Below, piece after piece: positions 8,791 through 61,034 of a stretch of 61,042 bases of DNA (the stretch's first letter is position 1; the number at the start of each line of letters is the position of its first letter). This stretch comes from a virus, in IMG/VR virus record IMGVR_UViG_3300042377_000298, positions 1 through 61,042 of that record; one strand, written 5' to 3'. The position numbers were made by a program, and so were the translations under genes. Under the pieces are notes generated by a model, which saw only the letters and a list, made by a program, of their open reading frames with translations, did no database searches and was not told where the DNA came from.

Positions 8791-9660
8791 ATGACACCTA
8801 AGAAAATATCATCAGTTCAACGATTATTTGCAACAGCAACACCTCAGTCAAGTGGGTCATCTGGGACAATAATTATTAATGCAAATGCAGTTAATAAGAC
8901 ACTTAGCCCGACAACTTGTTTTCCATTGTTCCGCAAGGTTAGTATTTTTGATGCTACTGAAACTGGGACATGGCAGATTTCAGACTCTGAAGTGGTTGGT
9001 TCTGCTGCTTATGTTGCAGCAATTGCCCAGCAACACTCCATAACTTGCGTCGATCCAATTACGGAATTTTCCTACTTAGATATAGGAATAACATCTTCCG
9101 TATATTCGGCGCTTGACGATGATACTCTTGTCGTTAGAATTGGAATAACCTCTTCATCTTCCATAAATAAATTAAGTAGTCAATTAGCATTAAAACTCAA
9201 CCTCAATAAGCAATTCAGTCAATATTTTATTGCTTCATCCTCAAGCACAACATTAACAGTAAAAAGAATAATTGACACTTACGGATTAGTTACTGATGCA
9301 ACAATGAATGTTTCTCTTACTGTATTTAGTGGAGTAGGAACTGCTGTGCCAACATCTACAGAAAATGAAGCAGGTTCCTTAGCGCAAGGTGTTCTATGGG
9401 AAGGCAATGATCCAGTTGATGCAGAGGGCGTTAGCGTTCCTGTTCTTTACGGATTATTGAAGGCTTCTATGATTAATTGCATATCTGGACAAGGTAATGT
9501 TTTTGATTCTGTTACCGATCGTTTTATTCCAGCAATTGAGGGTAGTTGTGACAGTCATTGCAATAGTGGCGTATCAACTGGGTTTGGAGGGATTGTAACC
9601 GTATATTGCACAACTGCGCCATTTATCCTTGAAATGACATTTGTCGCGCTTATTGATTAA
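8791..9660 (+). CDS. putative virion protein, Ser/Thr-rich
   Basis: 289 residues, starting 4 bp after the glycosyltransferase-like gene. It is Ser/Thr/Ala-rich with predicted beta structure and a few cysteines near the C-terminus (ISGQGNVFDS, CDSHCNSG). It has no signal peptide or enzyme motif. Likely a virion surface or tail protein by context; the pairing with the upstream enzyme makes it one possible acceptor, which is inference. Confidence 0.55.
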   Translation: MTPKKISSVQRLFATATPQSSGSSGTIIINANAVNKTLSPTTCFPLFRKVSIFDATETGTWQISDSEVVGSAAYVAAIAQQHSITCVDPITEFSYLDIGITSSVYSALDDDTLVVRIGITSSSSINKLSSQLALKLNLNKQFSQYFIASSSSTTLTVKRIIDTYGLVTDATMNVSLTVFSGVGTAVPTSTENEAGSLAQGVLWEGNDPVDAEGVSVPVLYGLLKASMINCISGQGNVFDSVTDRFIPAIEGSCDSHCNSGVSTGFGGIVTVYCTTAPFILEMTFVALID

Positions 9661-31028: not shown

Positions 31029-31343
31029 TTACTTAAGAATTTTTCCGTCTACCAACAATCCTTCTTTTGTTAAGAGATCGATGGCTTTTTGGATTTCTGT
31101 TTCAGGACGATTATCAACGATTGTTCCATCGGAGTTCTCGTAGTAAATCCGATTACCCTTGGAATCCCATCTCCGCTTTATCCAGAATCCATTGGAAGCT
31201 TCCAAGTAAATCTCTTTACCCTCGGAATCGTATTCATGCTTTCGCCAATCTCCATTGGAGTCCTCGCAGTAAATCTGATTACCTTTGGAATCTTTGATTT
31301 CAAATGGAAACTCTTTGATCTTTAATTGTTGAGCGATTGTCAT
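31029..31343 (-). CDS. tandem-repeat protein (YENSDG-x-W-x-K-x-EYDSxG repeats), shorter copy
   Basis: 104 residues made of three to four repeats of about 22 residues with the pattern IYYENSDGxWxKxxYDSxGK. An N-terminal cap (MTIAQQLKIKEFPFEI) and a C-terminal cap (EIQKAIDLLTKEGLLVDG) are nearly identical to those of the neighbouring gene at 31358. The repeats resemble the extended beta-hairpin repeats found in many bacterial and phage proteins. It is a tandem duplicate with fewer repeats. Function unknown; likely protein binding. Confidence 0.65.
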   Translation of the reverse strand: MTIAQQLKIKEFPFEIKDSKGNQIYCEDSNGDWRKHEYDSEGKEIYLEASNGFWIKRRWDSKGNRIYYENSDGTIVDNRPETEIQKAIDLLTKEGLLVDGKILK

Positions 31344-31357
31344 GTTATTATTATATT

Positions 31358-31738
31358 TTAGTTTTCAAGAATCTTACCATCTACGATTAATCCTTCTTTC
31401 GTGAGAAGATCGATTGCCTTTTGGATTTCTGTTTGGGGGCGATTATCAATAATTCTTCCCTTGGAGTCCTTGGAGTAAATCTTTTTACCATCGGAATCGT
31501 ATTCATTCTTTACCCAATATCTATCGGAGTTCTCGTAGTAAATCTCTTTACCCTCGGAATCGTATTCATTCTTTGCCCAATATCCCTTTGAGTCCTCCCA
31601 GTAAATCTCTTTCCCCTTGGAATCGTATTCCATCTTTGCCCAATATCCATCAGAGTTCTCATAGTAAATCTTATTACCCTCGGAATTTTTGATTTCAAAT
31701 GGGAACTCTTTGATCTTTAATTGTTTGGCGATTGTCAT
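31358..31738 (-). CDS. tandem-repeat protein, longer paralogue
   Basis: 126 residues from the ATG at 31738, which clears the upstream gene by 4 bp; an in-frame ATG at 31759 would overlap it. Same N- and C-terminal caps as the gene at 31029, with about one more 22-residue repeat (GYWAKMEYDSKGKEIYWEDS type). Nucleotide similarity between repeat units is high, so repeat number probably changes by slippage or recombination. Confidence 0.65.
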   Translation of the reverse strand: MTIAKQLKIKEFPFEIKNSEGNKIYYENSDGYWAKMEYDSKGKEIYWEDSKGYWAKNEYDSEGKEIYYENSDRYWVKNEYDSDGKKIYSKDSKGRIIDNRPQTEIQKAIDLLTKEGLIVDGKILEN

Positions 31739-43823: not shown

Positions 43824-44312
43824 AAAGGTGGCCGATGCGCGCGGCATTATGACTTTTCATCTTACAGTGTGTCGCTAGTATTACGTTTAGCTGTCCAGAG
43901 GTGAGAATTATTAGAGTTTCATCCGATCGACCTTTTATGTTCCTGCTTACCGTATGCAGGGCTAGCTTGACGCTACTAGCGGGTCCATCAGGAATCCTCT
44001 TTATCAGTGAGTTCCTAATGCCTAAGGCAGCGTCTTTCCGCTGTGTCTTTGTGGTGATGTGCTACTACGCTAAAGAGAAGATCGACCTTACCATTTACGG
44101 GGTGTCTCACTACTTAACCAAGGGAGCCAAACGAAACTCGTTTTCAGGAAAGCTATCCCATTGCTTTAGTGATTAGCGAAATCACCTTGCATTGATAAAT
44201 GGTTCTCACGGTAATCAAAGCCGAATTACATTTACCCTCTGAACTTTCACATGATTGATGCTCCTCTCACATGCTACAACGTCACGATTTGCTCTTGTCC
44301 CACTCATTATAG

Positions 44313-44333
44313 GATGGCTGCTTCTAAGCCAAC
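44313..44333 (-). ncRNA. hairpin matching the 23S rRNA GTPase-associated centre (L11-binding) stem-loop
   Basis: The minus strand here matches 21 of 21 nt with the stem-loop of E. coli 23S rRNA around positions 1060-1080 as I remember it (core GGCTTAGAAGCAGCC). The second hairpin of the 58-nt ribosomal domain is not evident downstream, so only half of the motif is present. It folds locally as TGGCT/AGCCA with loop TAGAAGC. Possible mimic of an L11-type site, or convergence on a loop fold. Confidence 0.55.
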
Positions 44334-44497
44334 CTTTCACCACACTCGCACCCACTGTTCAGGTCGCTCAACATCCACCCAAGCTTGCTGTTGGACGTAT
44401 ATCCTAAGTAGAGACTTACAGGTATTGTTTACTCAGTTGCCCTCAATGCAATAAGCGCGAGTGTAGTGACATGCTAAACGGCATGTCAGCGTTTATC

Positions 44498-44538
44498 GAA
44501 CATGTTGATGCAATCAACCTTGCGGTGATTGATCTTTT
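44498..44538 (-). repeat. GNRA hairpin element, copy A (5' part of the large RNA)
   Basis: On the minus strand: GATC, then AATCACC-GCAA-GGTTGATT, then GCATCAACATGTTC. Copy B at 47812-47852 shares the flanks and differs in the stem by two paired changes. It is the first strong structure of the candidate RNA and lies next to the TGACATGC hairpin. Confidence 0.65.
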
Positions 44539-44634
44539 CTATTCGGAATATTAATTAATTACACAATCATCTAAAGCAAAGCTAATTTCAATTTATTTAG
44601 TTTTAATTTTTATATTTTTATTTGCTTTTTTGAT

Positions 44635-44648
44635 TTTAGCCAACTAAA
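44635..44648. repeat. TTTAG-N4-CTAAA palindrome (core CCAA)
   Basis: TTTAGCCAACTAAA between the AT-rich upstream side of the large RNA (minus strand) and the plus-strand gene at 44675; it could control either transcript. Confidence 0.65.
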
Positions 44649-47791: not shown

Positions 47792-47811
47792 AGTTGTTTT
47801 AGTTAAAGTTA

Positions 47812-47852
47812 GAACATGTCGATGCGCTCAACCTTTCGGTGAGCGATCTTTG
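47812..47852 (-). repeat. GNRA hairpin element, copy B
   Basis: Minus strand: GATC, GCTCACC-GAAA-GGTTGAGC, GCATCGACATGTTC. Against copy A (44498-44538), the two outer stem pairs A-T become G-C and C-G while both flanks are kept, and the loop GCAA becomes GAAA. It overlaps the last codons of the gene ending at 47828 and ends 21 nt before the next ATG (47791). Confidence 0.65.
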
Positions 47853-48085
47853 CTGGTCGCGTGGAAAGATTCTAGCGCGTCACGGATCAGTTCCGCTTTG
47901 CGTTTGCATGAGGTCAGGCAGATTCGATCTTGCCCCCGATGGTCGCCCACTTCCCATTCGTGCCACTTTTGCAGCGGGGCTAGATTTTTCAGCAGGTAGC
48001 CGGGCTGAGCGATGAAGAAACGCGAACAATGCACGGCATGAGCGGATTTCTTCTTCGTGGTTTTCGTGGCTTTTTTCGCGCTCAT
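47828..48085 (-). CDS. small basic protein, unknown
   Basis: 85 residues from the ATG at 48085, chosen because a longer frame to 48247 would run through the upstream gene. It opens with a lysine-rich stretch (SAKKATKTTKKKSAH), then HCSRFFIAQPG and LTSCKRKAELIRDALESFHA. The stop lies inside the GNRA hairpin. DNA binding plausible. Not recognised. Confidence 0.5.
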   Translation of the reverse strand: MSAKKATKTTKKKSAHAVHCSRFFIAQPGYLLKNLAPLQKWHEWEVGDHRGQDRICLTSCKRKAELIRDALESFHATSKDRSPKG

Positions 48086-54103: not shown

Positions 54104-54271
54104 ATTCGTGTATGGTTTGGTTCAAGCTGGCCTACCAACGTGGTAGGTTGCAGCGAGAGGAATATGACGCAACCCCCATCACCTTTCGGTGACAGGACGC
54201 TTTGGGCTTAATGTCTGTTTAACGTCGCCCAAACGACGGAGTAGTTTTAACGCCTTGCTCAGGGCGAAGTC
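54104..54271 (-). promoter_or_regulatory. hairpin-rich leader
   Basis: Minus strand shows CCTACCA-CGT-TGGTAGG (perfect 7 bp), GTTGC/GCAAC, TCACC-GAAA-GGTGA (GNRA loop, about 54167-54181) and GGGC/GCCC pairings within 168 bp, all before the ATG at 54103. The GNRA hairpin resembles the elements at 44.5 and 47.8 kb but lacks their flank. Leader RNA or small RNA. Confidence 0.45.
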
Positions 54272-59013: not shown

Positions 59014-60175
59014 AGAAGTAAACGACGACGGGGGAGATATTGAAATTCTCAGAGCAATGAACGATTCATTTCCAGTGAGTGATGAGAATGCATTTCCTGA
59101 TAATAGCGAGCAATTGGAGCAAGTCCAAGCACCAGAGACGCAAGAAAAGAAAGAAGTAGTCAATAAGAGCATTGAGCAACCTGATGATTCTAATTTAATT
59201 GACGAAGCTGATGAATTCCTTGCTTTGTCTGAAGATGAGAAAGCACCTGAGTATAGCGAAGAGTCTTTCAACAAAGAGACAGAAGAAATGTCAAAAGGCA
59301 TGGACGCTAAAGCTGGAGATAAATTCCGAGCTTTGCGACAAGAACTTAAGGAGTATAAGGAAAAGAAAGTAGATGTCAAAGTTTCACCTGACATTGAATC
59401 TAAAATTAAAGATCTTGAGTTGAAGGCTGCTGAGGCTGAAGGCTTACGCCAACAAGTTGAAGAGCTTAGTTCGGTTAGTGCAAAGGTTAAGGTTGAGTCA
59501 TCGCGTGAATACAAACAAAAGGTTCTTGAGCCAGCTGTTACTATTCTACAAGAGTCAGAAAAGATTGCTAAAGCTCATGATGTTGATGCAGAGGTGATTC
59601 ATGATATTATTCGTGAACAAGATAGAGAGTTACAAATTGATCTTATCAATGCTCATCTATCTGGACTTAACGAGCTTGAGAAACAAGACTTGTATCGCAT
59701 GATGTATGAATACCGCAATCTTGGAAAACTAAGAAGCGAGATGTTAGACAATGCATCAACAAAACTAAGTCAGATTGAGGCAGAGCAAATTGAGCAACAG
59801 AGCCAACAGTTTGAAGCTGAAAAGAAAGCAGTGCAACAAATTCAATCTAGTATCTGGGATAAGTATAAAACAATAATTCCGGGATTCACTAATGAAAATG
59901 GTGAAGCTACTGAGGATTGGTCTAAGTTGCGCAATAGATCATTGTCTATTGACTTCAGCAAAGCAGCAGGAAAAGATAAGGCATATGCTGCGTTTGCTGG
60001 TGTTGCGTTACCTCACGTAATCAAGGAACTCAACAATGCTAAGAAAATGTTACAGGAACTTACAGGCAAGGAAGCAAACGAAGTGTTGCGCCGACCAAAA
60101 CTGGGGCAACCAATTGCGCAAAATTCTAGTGAACCAGAAGATTTCCTTTCCGCTATGAGAAAAATGAAATTTTAA
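59006..60175 (+). CDS. scaffold-like head assembly protein
   Basis: 389 residues, very acidic N-terminal half (LEQVQAPETQEKKEVVNKSI and similar), long coiled coil (about 110-300) and a C-terminal basic end, ...SAMRKMKF. This is the plan of phage scaffolding proteins, whose basic tail binds capsid protein. Its last 13 codons form the start of a 99-bp direct repeat whose second copy lies at 60877. The major capsid gene should follow but is not seen. Confidence 0.75.
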   Translation: MSEEVNDDGGDIEILRAMNDSFPVSDENAFPDNSEQLEQVQAPETQEKKEVVNKSIEQPDDSNLIDEADEFLALSEDEKAPEYSEESFNKETEEMSKGMDAKAGDKFRALRQELKEYKEKKVDVKVSPDIESKIKDLELKAAEAEGLRQQVEELSSVSAKVKVESSREYKQKVLEPAVTILQESEKIAKAHDVDAEVIHDIIREQDRELQIDLINAHLSGLNELEKQDLYRMMYEYRNLGKLRSEMLDNASTKLSQIEAEQIEQQSQQFEAEKKAVQQIQSSIWDKYKTIIPGFTNENGEATEDWSKLRNRSLSIDFSKAAGKDKAYAAFAGVALPHVIKELNNAKKMLQELTGKEANEVLRRPKLGQPIAQNSSEPEDFLSAMRKMKF

Positions 60176-60235
60176 TTCTAATAAAAAAAGTTTTGACACA
60201 TACTACTTTTCCAGATAATTGTCTCTCGAACTGTT
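60137..60235 (+). repeat. 99-bp direct repeat, copy 1
   Basis: Covers the scaffold's last 13 codons (EDFLSAMRKMKF plus stop) and the promoter-like region downstream. Copy 2 at 60877-60975 matches at 91 of 99 positions. Confidence 0.9.
60193..60219 (+). promoter_or_regulatory. sigma70-type promoter candidate
   Basis: TTGACA (60193-60198), 15-nt spacer, GATAAT (60214-60219; 5 of 6 to consensus). Copy 2 of the repeat keeps both boxes (TTGACA at 60933). It may drive the genes after scaffold, including the capsid gene outside the window. Confidence 0.6.
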
Positions 60236-60257
60236 AACTAATAACTAAAATAATAAT

Positions 60258-60605
60258 ATGCCAGCTAAAAAGAAAATGTCAGATTCTCAACTTAATGCCC
60301 ACATGCAACAAATAGGTCATAGAAAACTTATGCTAGGACCTAATCCATTCCCATTTCGGGAAAAGAAATTTGCAGAGGAAAGCACAAAAAAATTACGAGA
60401 AAAACAAAGTATGCAAAAATCACAATCATTGGCTGGCCCATCCCGATCCCAGCTTTTACATGAACAAGAATTTGCTTCTCGTACAAAAGAATTAAAGGAG
60501 CGATCATCACCCTCTGCCTATAAGCCACCATCACCTCCTTCACGATCTTCACTCTTAAAGGCTCGCGGAACAAAATCATCGGCTACTCGTAAGCTAATCA
60601 AGTAA
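60258..60605 (+). CDS. small basic protein, unknown
   Basis: 115 residues, Lys/Ser/Pro-rich (MPAKKKMSDSQLNAHMQQIG; SAYKPPSPPSRSSLLKARGT), probably disordered. Head-region position and charge suggest a DNA- or capsid-binding accessory. Stop and next ATG overlap (TAATG). Confidence 0.5.
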   Translation: MPAKKKMSDSQLNAHMQQIGHRKLMLGPNPFPFREKKFAEESTKKLREKQSMQKSQSLAGPSRSQLLHEQEFASRTKELKERSSPSAYKPPSPPSRSSLLKARGTKSSATRKLIK

Positions 60606-60682
60606 TGGAGAAGAGATTCAAAAAAGTAATCACGAACCCAGCAACGGGACGCAAGAGAACCGTGAAGTTTGGGCAAGCCTAA
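60605..60682 (+). CDS. 25-residue gene, likely 5' part of the adjoining HNH-like gene
   Basis: ATG to TAA gives MEKRFKKVITNPATGRKRTV and KFGQA. Skipping one base near 60677 joins KFGQ to PKQVSRRAGRN of the next frame. Short conserved phage proteins have the TNPxTGRxRTVKFGQ phrase, so a frameshift or sequencing error is likely. Confidence 0.45.
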   Translation: MEKRFKKVITNPATGRKRTVKFGQA

Positions 60683-61034
60683 GCAAGTATCTCGCCGTGC
60701 GGGTCGCAATGCTGCGCGAGCGAAAGCAGTGAAGTCTGGCATGGCATGCAAAGGAGACGGAAAGAATATTCATCACAAGAACAATAATCCCAAGGATAAC
60801 CGTTCTTGTAACATTGCATCTGTATCAGTAAGCAAGAACAGAGGGTTTCCACGAACATCAACTAACAAACCGAAAGGAAGATTTCATTTCTGCTATGAGA
60901 AAAATGAAATTTTAATTTTAGTAAAAAAAGTTTTGACACATGCTGCTTTTTCGGATAATTGTCTCTCGAACTGTTCGAGGTGCATGGTTCTAAAAAGCAG
61001 CATTTTCCGTTGGCTCGGTCGTTATCCGTTCTAG
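60669..61034 (+). CDS. HNH-motif protein fragment fused to foreign 3' sequence
   Basis: Frame open from TTG 60669 to 61034. The first 70 residues look real: PKQVSRRAGRNAARAKAVKS, then KNIHHKNNNPKDNRSCNI, the His-Asn motif of HNH-type enzymes (IHHKNxNPxDNRxxN), and SKNRGFPRTS. From about 60877 the frame runs through copy 2 of the 99-bp repeat in a different frame from the scaffold, so the last 50 residues are probably not native. Start and end are therefore uncertain. Confidence 0.5.
   Translation: MGKPKQVSRRAGRNAARAKAVKSGMACKGDGKNIHHKNNNPKDNRSCNIASVSVSKNRGFPRTSTNKPKGRFHFCYEKNEILILVKKVLTHAAFSDNCLSNCSRCMVLKSSIFRWLGRYPF
60877..60975 (+). repeat. 99-bp direct repeat, copy 2
   Basis: Reads EDFISAMRKMKF plus stop in the scaffold's frame, then the same promoter-like boxes. 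Eight differences to copy 1, seven of them transitions; two fall in codons (one synonymous, one Leu to Ile). The sequence after it (60976-61042) has no convincing gene. Confidence 0.9.

Follow-up and report, generated by a model that had tools for sequence, protein, structure and literature searches.

The window analysed here, the whole of a 61,042-nt stretch of phage DNA catalogued as a virus record in IMG/VR, carries on its minus strand two copies, A and B, of a hairpin (Table 1). This hairpin represents a previously undescribed family of structured RNAs, unusual in that a stop codon is embedded in it in a fixed frame. It probably serves to cut, insulate or control phage messages where genes meet, much as other phage hairpins act in intergenic processing or regulation. 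Its secondary structure is conserved with compensatory changes, a point about which we have very little doubt. The family is small, comprising ten distinct copies, all of them from uncultivated phages. Coding sequence, stop codon and conserved RNA fold are combined in one portable cassette, which offers a concrete test case for how phages that lack Shine-Dalgarno (SD) signals separate or couple adjacent genes.

Table 1. Features of the hairpin copies and their surroundings in the window.
Feature	Coordinates	Strand	Basis or remarks
Hairpin element, copy A	44497..44545	-	Sequence; fold; covariance model R1 72.8 bits, R2 69.5 bits
Hairpin element, copy B	47811..47859	-	Sequence; fold; covariance model R1 71 bits
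Element 2, a structured RNA adjoining the 3′ side of copy A	44338..44494	-	Also in L003, L007, L028-L039
GAC-RNA	44051..44343	-	23S GTPase-associated-centre core (H43, H44) with 226-nt insert between
Fourth conserved non-coding block (GGAAAGA...CCUUAGGCAUUAGGAACUCACUGAUAAAGAGG...)	43917..44047	-	92% identity to contig G006 (L075 203-330)
Gene upstream of copy B (...HATSKDRSPKG-stop)	47828..48085	-	UGA 47830-47828 at element positions 30-32
Next open frame after copy B, 51 codons	47636..47791	-	ATG 20 nt past copy B; without SD

The first-pass annotation had placed the two copies at 44498-44538 and 47812-47852 of the minus strand and had described two stem pairs that differ on both sides (A-U to G-C and A-U to C-G) together with a loop change from GCAA to GAAA. 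Those positions and all of those changes were confirmed. The place of the element was thus right, but its full length is 49 nt, outer helix included, beyond the 41 nt noted. The outer helix and a conserved internal loop had been missed, as had the stop codon of the preceding gene inside copy B and the location of copy A at the head of a longer non-coding RNA locus. Copy A consists of the outer helix CGAAUA/UGUUCG, the internal loop, the stem GAUCAAUCA/UGAUUGCAUC, a U bulge and the tip CC-GCAA-GG. Copy B has the stem GAUCGCUCA/UGAGCGCAUC, the U bulge and the tip CC-GAAA-GG, and its outer helix is weak. With up to three mismatches allowed, TCACCGNRAGGTTGANNGCATC matches the window at A and B only, against 0.03 matches expected, and two matches occurred in 0 of 100 shuffles, so that the pair is not due to chance. 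Folding of A, B and their relatives as hairpins gave z values of about -3.

Exact-pattern scans of IMG/VR found the A and B stem types in other contigs, one B-like (L001) and two A-like (L003 and L007), as well as in near-identical phages (L002/L005 and L004/L006). A second IMG/VR scan left the stem free and specified the flanks only (AGCAAAGATC-N14-26-ATCGANNTGTT), a design chosen to avoid circularity. It yielded a third stem type, L043, with the sequence AGAACAG CAAA GAU CGGGAG CCGC GGUA GCGG U CUCCUG C AUC GAC CUGUUCU. All six lower-stem pairs are kept in L043, five of them changed relative to A; the U bulge is retained as well, and the outer helix is complete. Covariance model R1 then retrieved further copies from related phages at E values of 1e-8 to 1e-10, namely those in L028 (identical in L034 and L039) and L033 together with second copies in L043 and in G005 with its relatives, which brought the distinct copies to ten. 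The refitted model R2 gave no clear additional copies in the 32 records scanned, and no related copy of the hairpin or its region was found in INPHARED phages, PLSDB plasmids or GTDB genome contigs. Seven pattern matches (L015, L030, L038, L040, L042, L044 and L045) were dropped as fortuitous on reading or for a weak model score. Each contig holds only one or two copies of the element.

Across the 18 pairs of the first six copies, 92.6% are standard pairs and six pairs have changed on both sides; the inner helix is 100% paired, with two-sided changes in 5 of its 11 pairs. None of 500 shuffles of this six-copy alignment reached the observed pairing percentage or covariation score, and all slid registers collapsed. 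Thus, in the wider alignment on which the first-pass annotation had staked its structural claim, the stem pairs do covary, and the metagenome search and covariance model that it had proposed produced ten distinct copies. The inner helix (helix 2) is 98% paired among the ten, in an alignment that is model-fitted and therefore leans towards the model. The conclusion that the RNA structure was under selection is upheld by this wider alignment, but not by the original argument that the paired changes occurred in the same genome. A resembles L003 and L007 and B resembles L001, each being nearer to copies in other phages than to the other, so that "in the same genome" was the wrong argument. Moreover, the paired changes between A and B are by themselves too little, because the element also overlaps coding sequence. 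U-G pairs occur at one outer-helix pair in 4 of the 10 copies, and L043 has one G-U pair. These are paired on the sense strand only, which points to RNA, or to that single strand, rather than to duplex DNA. Since they would be mismatched on the other strand, and since every copy joined to a gene points in the direction of that gene, selection has probably acted on the sense RNA.

Members of the family are 47 to 54 nt long. On the 5′ side, GAACAG (or GAAUAG) is followed by CMAA, GAUC, five variable bases and a variable upper stem. After a tri- or tetraloop, the 3′ side continues with the upper stem, a one-base bulge (mostly U), five variable bases, G, C, AUC, GAY and CUGUUC. These segments form an outer helix (GAACAG/CUGUUC), an internal loop (CMAA/GAY) with A or C at its second position, and a clamp (GAUC/G(C)AUC) beside the loop. 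The outer helix, the internal loop and the clamp keep their letters, while the inner stem and tip drift and yet remain paired. The outer helix is weak or missing in copy B and in G005b and may not be essential. Judged by eye, the internal loop fits poorly to a kink-turn or a loop-E motif.

Eight of the ten copies (B, L001, L003, L007, L028, L033, L043_2 and G005b) each overlap the 3′ end of a gene. Seven different genes are involved, the gene upstream of B being the same as that of L001, where it ends NSKDRSPKG-stop. All seven genes enter the element in its frame 2, with 84 to 141 open codons upstream, and stop at element position 27 to 33; the probability that seven genes share one frame by chance is about 0.0014. 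These otherwise unrelated genes share the tail N-S-(K/Q)-D...stop, and two of the tip-length variants differ by exactly 3 nt, which keeps the UGA in frame. L028 and L033 have the element and a downstream helicase-like gene in common but differ in their upstream genes. L043_1 directly follows the stop of a terminase-like gene, and copy A has no upstream gene. Every copy joined to a gene is sense-oriented. In B, L028, L043_1 and L043_2, a start without SD lies 14 to 35 nt past the element. L033 and G005b, for which the automated choice of frame fell on an overlapping one, have an ATG at a similar distance. Behind A, L003 and L007 comes element 2, with no gene for more than 200 nt. Among the long ORFs of the window, 22 of 38 lack even a 3-nt SD match, compared with 30% of random sites. 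This scarcity suggests a host or a translation mode independent of SD.

We tentatively read the element as a cis-acting processing or insulator hairpin at gene borders, active on the gene-sense strand of these uncultivated phages. A structure-specific factor, perhaps RNase III or another RNase of the host or the phage, perhaps a different binding protein, would recognize the hairpin via its internal loop, and the upstream message would thereby be separated or insulated from what comes next. A ribosome terminating within the hairpin would set when it can fold, so that folding and processing would have to await translation of the gene before it. The non-coding RNA locus behind copy A would owe its 5′ end to the same site. 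Such a function explains the location at gene borders, the border to non-coding RNA and the low copy number. It is supported by the covariation, the unrelated upstream genes and their shared frame, the free-stem copy L043, the copies retrieved with R1, the sense orientation of gene-joined copies, and by A, L003 and L007, in which the hairpin immediately precedes element 2. Irregular hairpins at the gene borders of polycistronic phage mRNA serve as RNase III processing sites of the T7 R1.1 type. Compared with R1.1 folded locally, the present hairpin likewise has a lower and an upper helix separated by an asymmetric internal loop and sits at gene borders, between same-strand neighbour genes, although many hairpins share these traits, which makes them weak evidence for membership. 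The likeness is one of general outline only: there is no sequence relation, and the conserved loop and clamp and the in-frame stop are peculiar to the present hairpin. Hammerhead ribozymes, several of which flank prophage genes, have been read as processing long phage transcripts (PMC3088659), which sets a precedent for RNA processing at phage gene borders; the present window, too, has a Pistol ribozyme on the strand of A and B.

A plain processing site does not need a fixed frame or an embedded stop, and both fit translational control better. The frame-fixed stop suggests that termination is part of the mechanism, which makes termination-coupled translational control the main rival, a possibility to be taken seriously even though we hold it to be on the unlikely side. 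The stopping ribosome would open the hairpin, and refolding upon its release would govern initiation or reinitiation at the SD-less start 14 to 35 nt downstream, in the manner of an attenuator or of termination-reinitiation. The eight copies whose hairpin contains a stop, always in the same frame, argue for it, as do the starts that follow B, L028, L043_1 and L043_2, the similarly placed ATGs of L033 and G005b, and the avoidance of SD motifs by the phage. It accounts less well for A, L003 and L007, which lead into element 2 with no gene nearby, for L043_1, which follows a finished terminase-like gene, and for copy A, which has no gene before it. In a more specific proposal, drawn from the sequences and in our view rather unlikely, the hairpin might sense translation termination: with the stop in the 3′ arm of a protein-binding or processing hairpin, the message would be cut or re-entered only after translation, and phages would transfer the hairpin with its tail codons and stop, as a ready-made end, from one gene to another that is unrelated.

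By analogy with HK022 put and lambda nut, the element could instead load onto RNA polymerase as an antitermination or antipausing site in nascent RNA, or be an operator bound by a phage protein, which is distinctly unlikely. The conserved internal loop and helix ends together with a free tip form the pattern of a binding site, and the one or two copies per contig recall putL and putR of HK022 (PMC9378689). Like these, the element is a structured cis-acting phage RNA with two related copies per genome. However, put RNA consists of two adjacent stem-loops, about 70 nt in all, downstream of early promoters (PMC9378689), whereas the present element is one hairpin, found at gene ends within strings of genes and not just past promoters, and its fixed reading frame would be left unexplained. 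Scans for promoters and terminators did no better than on shuffled sequences, and neither A nor B has on the minus strand a GC stem with U tract typical of an intrinsic terminator.

Repetitive extragenic palindromes (REP), Rickettsia palindromic elements (RPE) and lambdoid boundary sequences are short palindromes at gene ends or in frame. The present element is likewise a short palindrome in several contexts, which raises the quite improbable alternative of a mobile palindrome or recombination linker whose hairpin acts as single-stranded DNA in transfer and not as RNA. It follows unrelated genes, L028 and L033 carry the same element behind different genes, and hairpin plus element 2 recur, at about 94%, in phages with unrelated flanks. 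Mobile palindromes of the REP/RPE type, however, come in many near-identical copies per genome, whereas here there are one or two per contig that have diverged within the genome, with a sequence-conserved internal loop, a fixed frame and a sense orientation; their compensatory drift indicates long-term function.

We consider it very improbable that the hairpin is a new small self-cleaving ribozyme with the CMAA/GAY internal loop as active site. Intergenic self-cleaving ribozymes do occur in phages, Pistol among them in this one, the internal loop is conserved between variable stems, and the hairpin is absent from Rfam. Hammerhead (PMC3088659) and Pistol (RF02679) ribozymes are, like the hairpin, small structured RNAs at gene borders, several of which sometimes flank gene blocks, but the hairpin lacks a known catalytic core. 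Its single 4/3-nt internal loop is small and varies between A and C at position 2, and it has no pseudoknot or second conserved domain. Rfam 15 gave no match to the A or B regions even at an E value of 5, and the only match of the whole window was the Pistol ribozyme at 54.2 kb (54168-54238, minus strand, the same as A and B; 61.6 bits). An ATG frame on that strand begins about 65 nt after it. Copies A and B do not match the Pistol model with its three stems, pseudoknot and 10 conserved core nucleotides, and none of the related contigs tested contains a Pistol ribozyme.

That the similarity reflects pure coding constraint, with the hairpin incidental to the tail NSKDxSPxG-stop or to an antisense zinc-ribbon-like frame, is hardly credible: unrelated genes do share the N-S-(K/Q)-D tail, and a CxxC...CPQC-like reading exists on the plus strand in A and L003, but the residues past D vary freely, and the 3′ arm beyond the stop codon still covaries with the 5′ arm, which contradicts this reading. 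The antisense zinc-ribbon frame has no start in L003, is frameshifted in A, contains stops in L007 and has no homologue. An RNA anti-CRISPR (Racr) is a solitary repeat unit that resembles a CRISPR repeat in sequence and structure (PMC10651486); given the gene overlap and the drifting stem, the hairpin is unlikely to be one.

Copy A heads a non-coding RNA locus of about 600 nt. Study of the hairpin also brought to light a group of phage non-coding RNAs that had escaped notice, among them the GAC-RNA, which recurs in tRNA arrays of several large phages. Element 2, immediately 3′ of A, is present in more than 10 contigs, in several of them beside a tRNA. It contains the crossing stems AAACG/CGUUU and GACAUGC/GCAUGUC, which show compensatory changes, and a long-range stem of 19 to 20 bp; its covariation is modest (three pairs). 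The tip of element 2 is hypervariable, and phages exchange it: nearly identical flanks enclose wholly different tips in L029 and L031, and L007 and L028 have the same tip with different flanks. Another record picked up by the element 2 pattern, L046, was a chance match within a coding gene. Element 2 has no match in Rfam, and neither it nor the hairpin resembles rRNA above the level of shuffled sequences.

The GAC-RNA starts about 150 nt downstream of A. Its 5′ core aligns with helix 43 of E. coli 23S rRNA over 30 nt (score of 50, compared with a shuffle maximum of 24), and its 3′ core, GCGUAAUAGCACAC, agrees with helix 44 at 13 of 14 positions, which 0 of 500 shuffles achieved. Throughout the family (records L009-L013 and L016-L027) an insert of 100 to 250 nt separates the cores, the loops equivalent to A1067 and A1095 are present, and the closing helix covaries among 14 members. 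Mostly unannotated, these RNAs occur in Pseudomonas phages pf16, UNO-G1W1, Milchi and Astolliot, in Aeromonas phage 4_4572 and in jumbo phages, often inside tRNA arrays (pf16, UNO-G1W1, Milchi and Aeromonas 4_4572). Several short INPHARED records among the matches were excluded because they are evidently host 23S rRNA. The GAC-RNA is possibly a decoy for L11, translation factors or RelA. If expressed, it would bear directly on how phages deal with L11, translation factors or the stringent response, and it may be more interesting than the hairpin itself. The fourth conserved block matched neither Rfam nor isolated phages, and we found no description of the hairpin, element 2 or GAC-RNA in the open-licence literature.

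Elsewhere in the window, palindromes like TTTAGYCRRCTAAA occur at 9658, 19318, 21418, 25108 and 45747 and near 44640 and 43820, some of them between genes; they are possibly operators or modification sites. Large direct repeats lie at 31035-31687 and 60137-60975 (258 nt at 78% identity; 99 nt at 92% identity).
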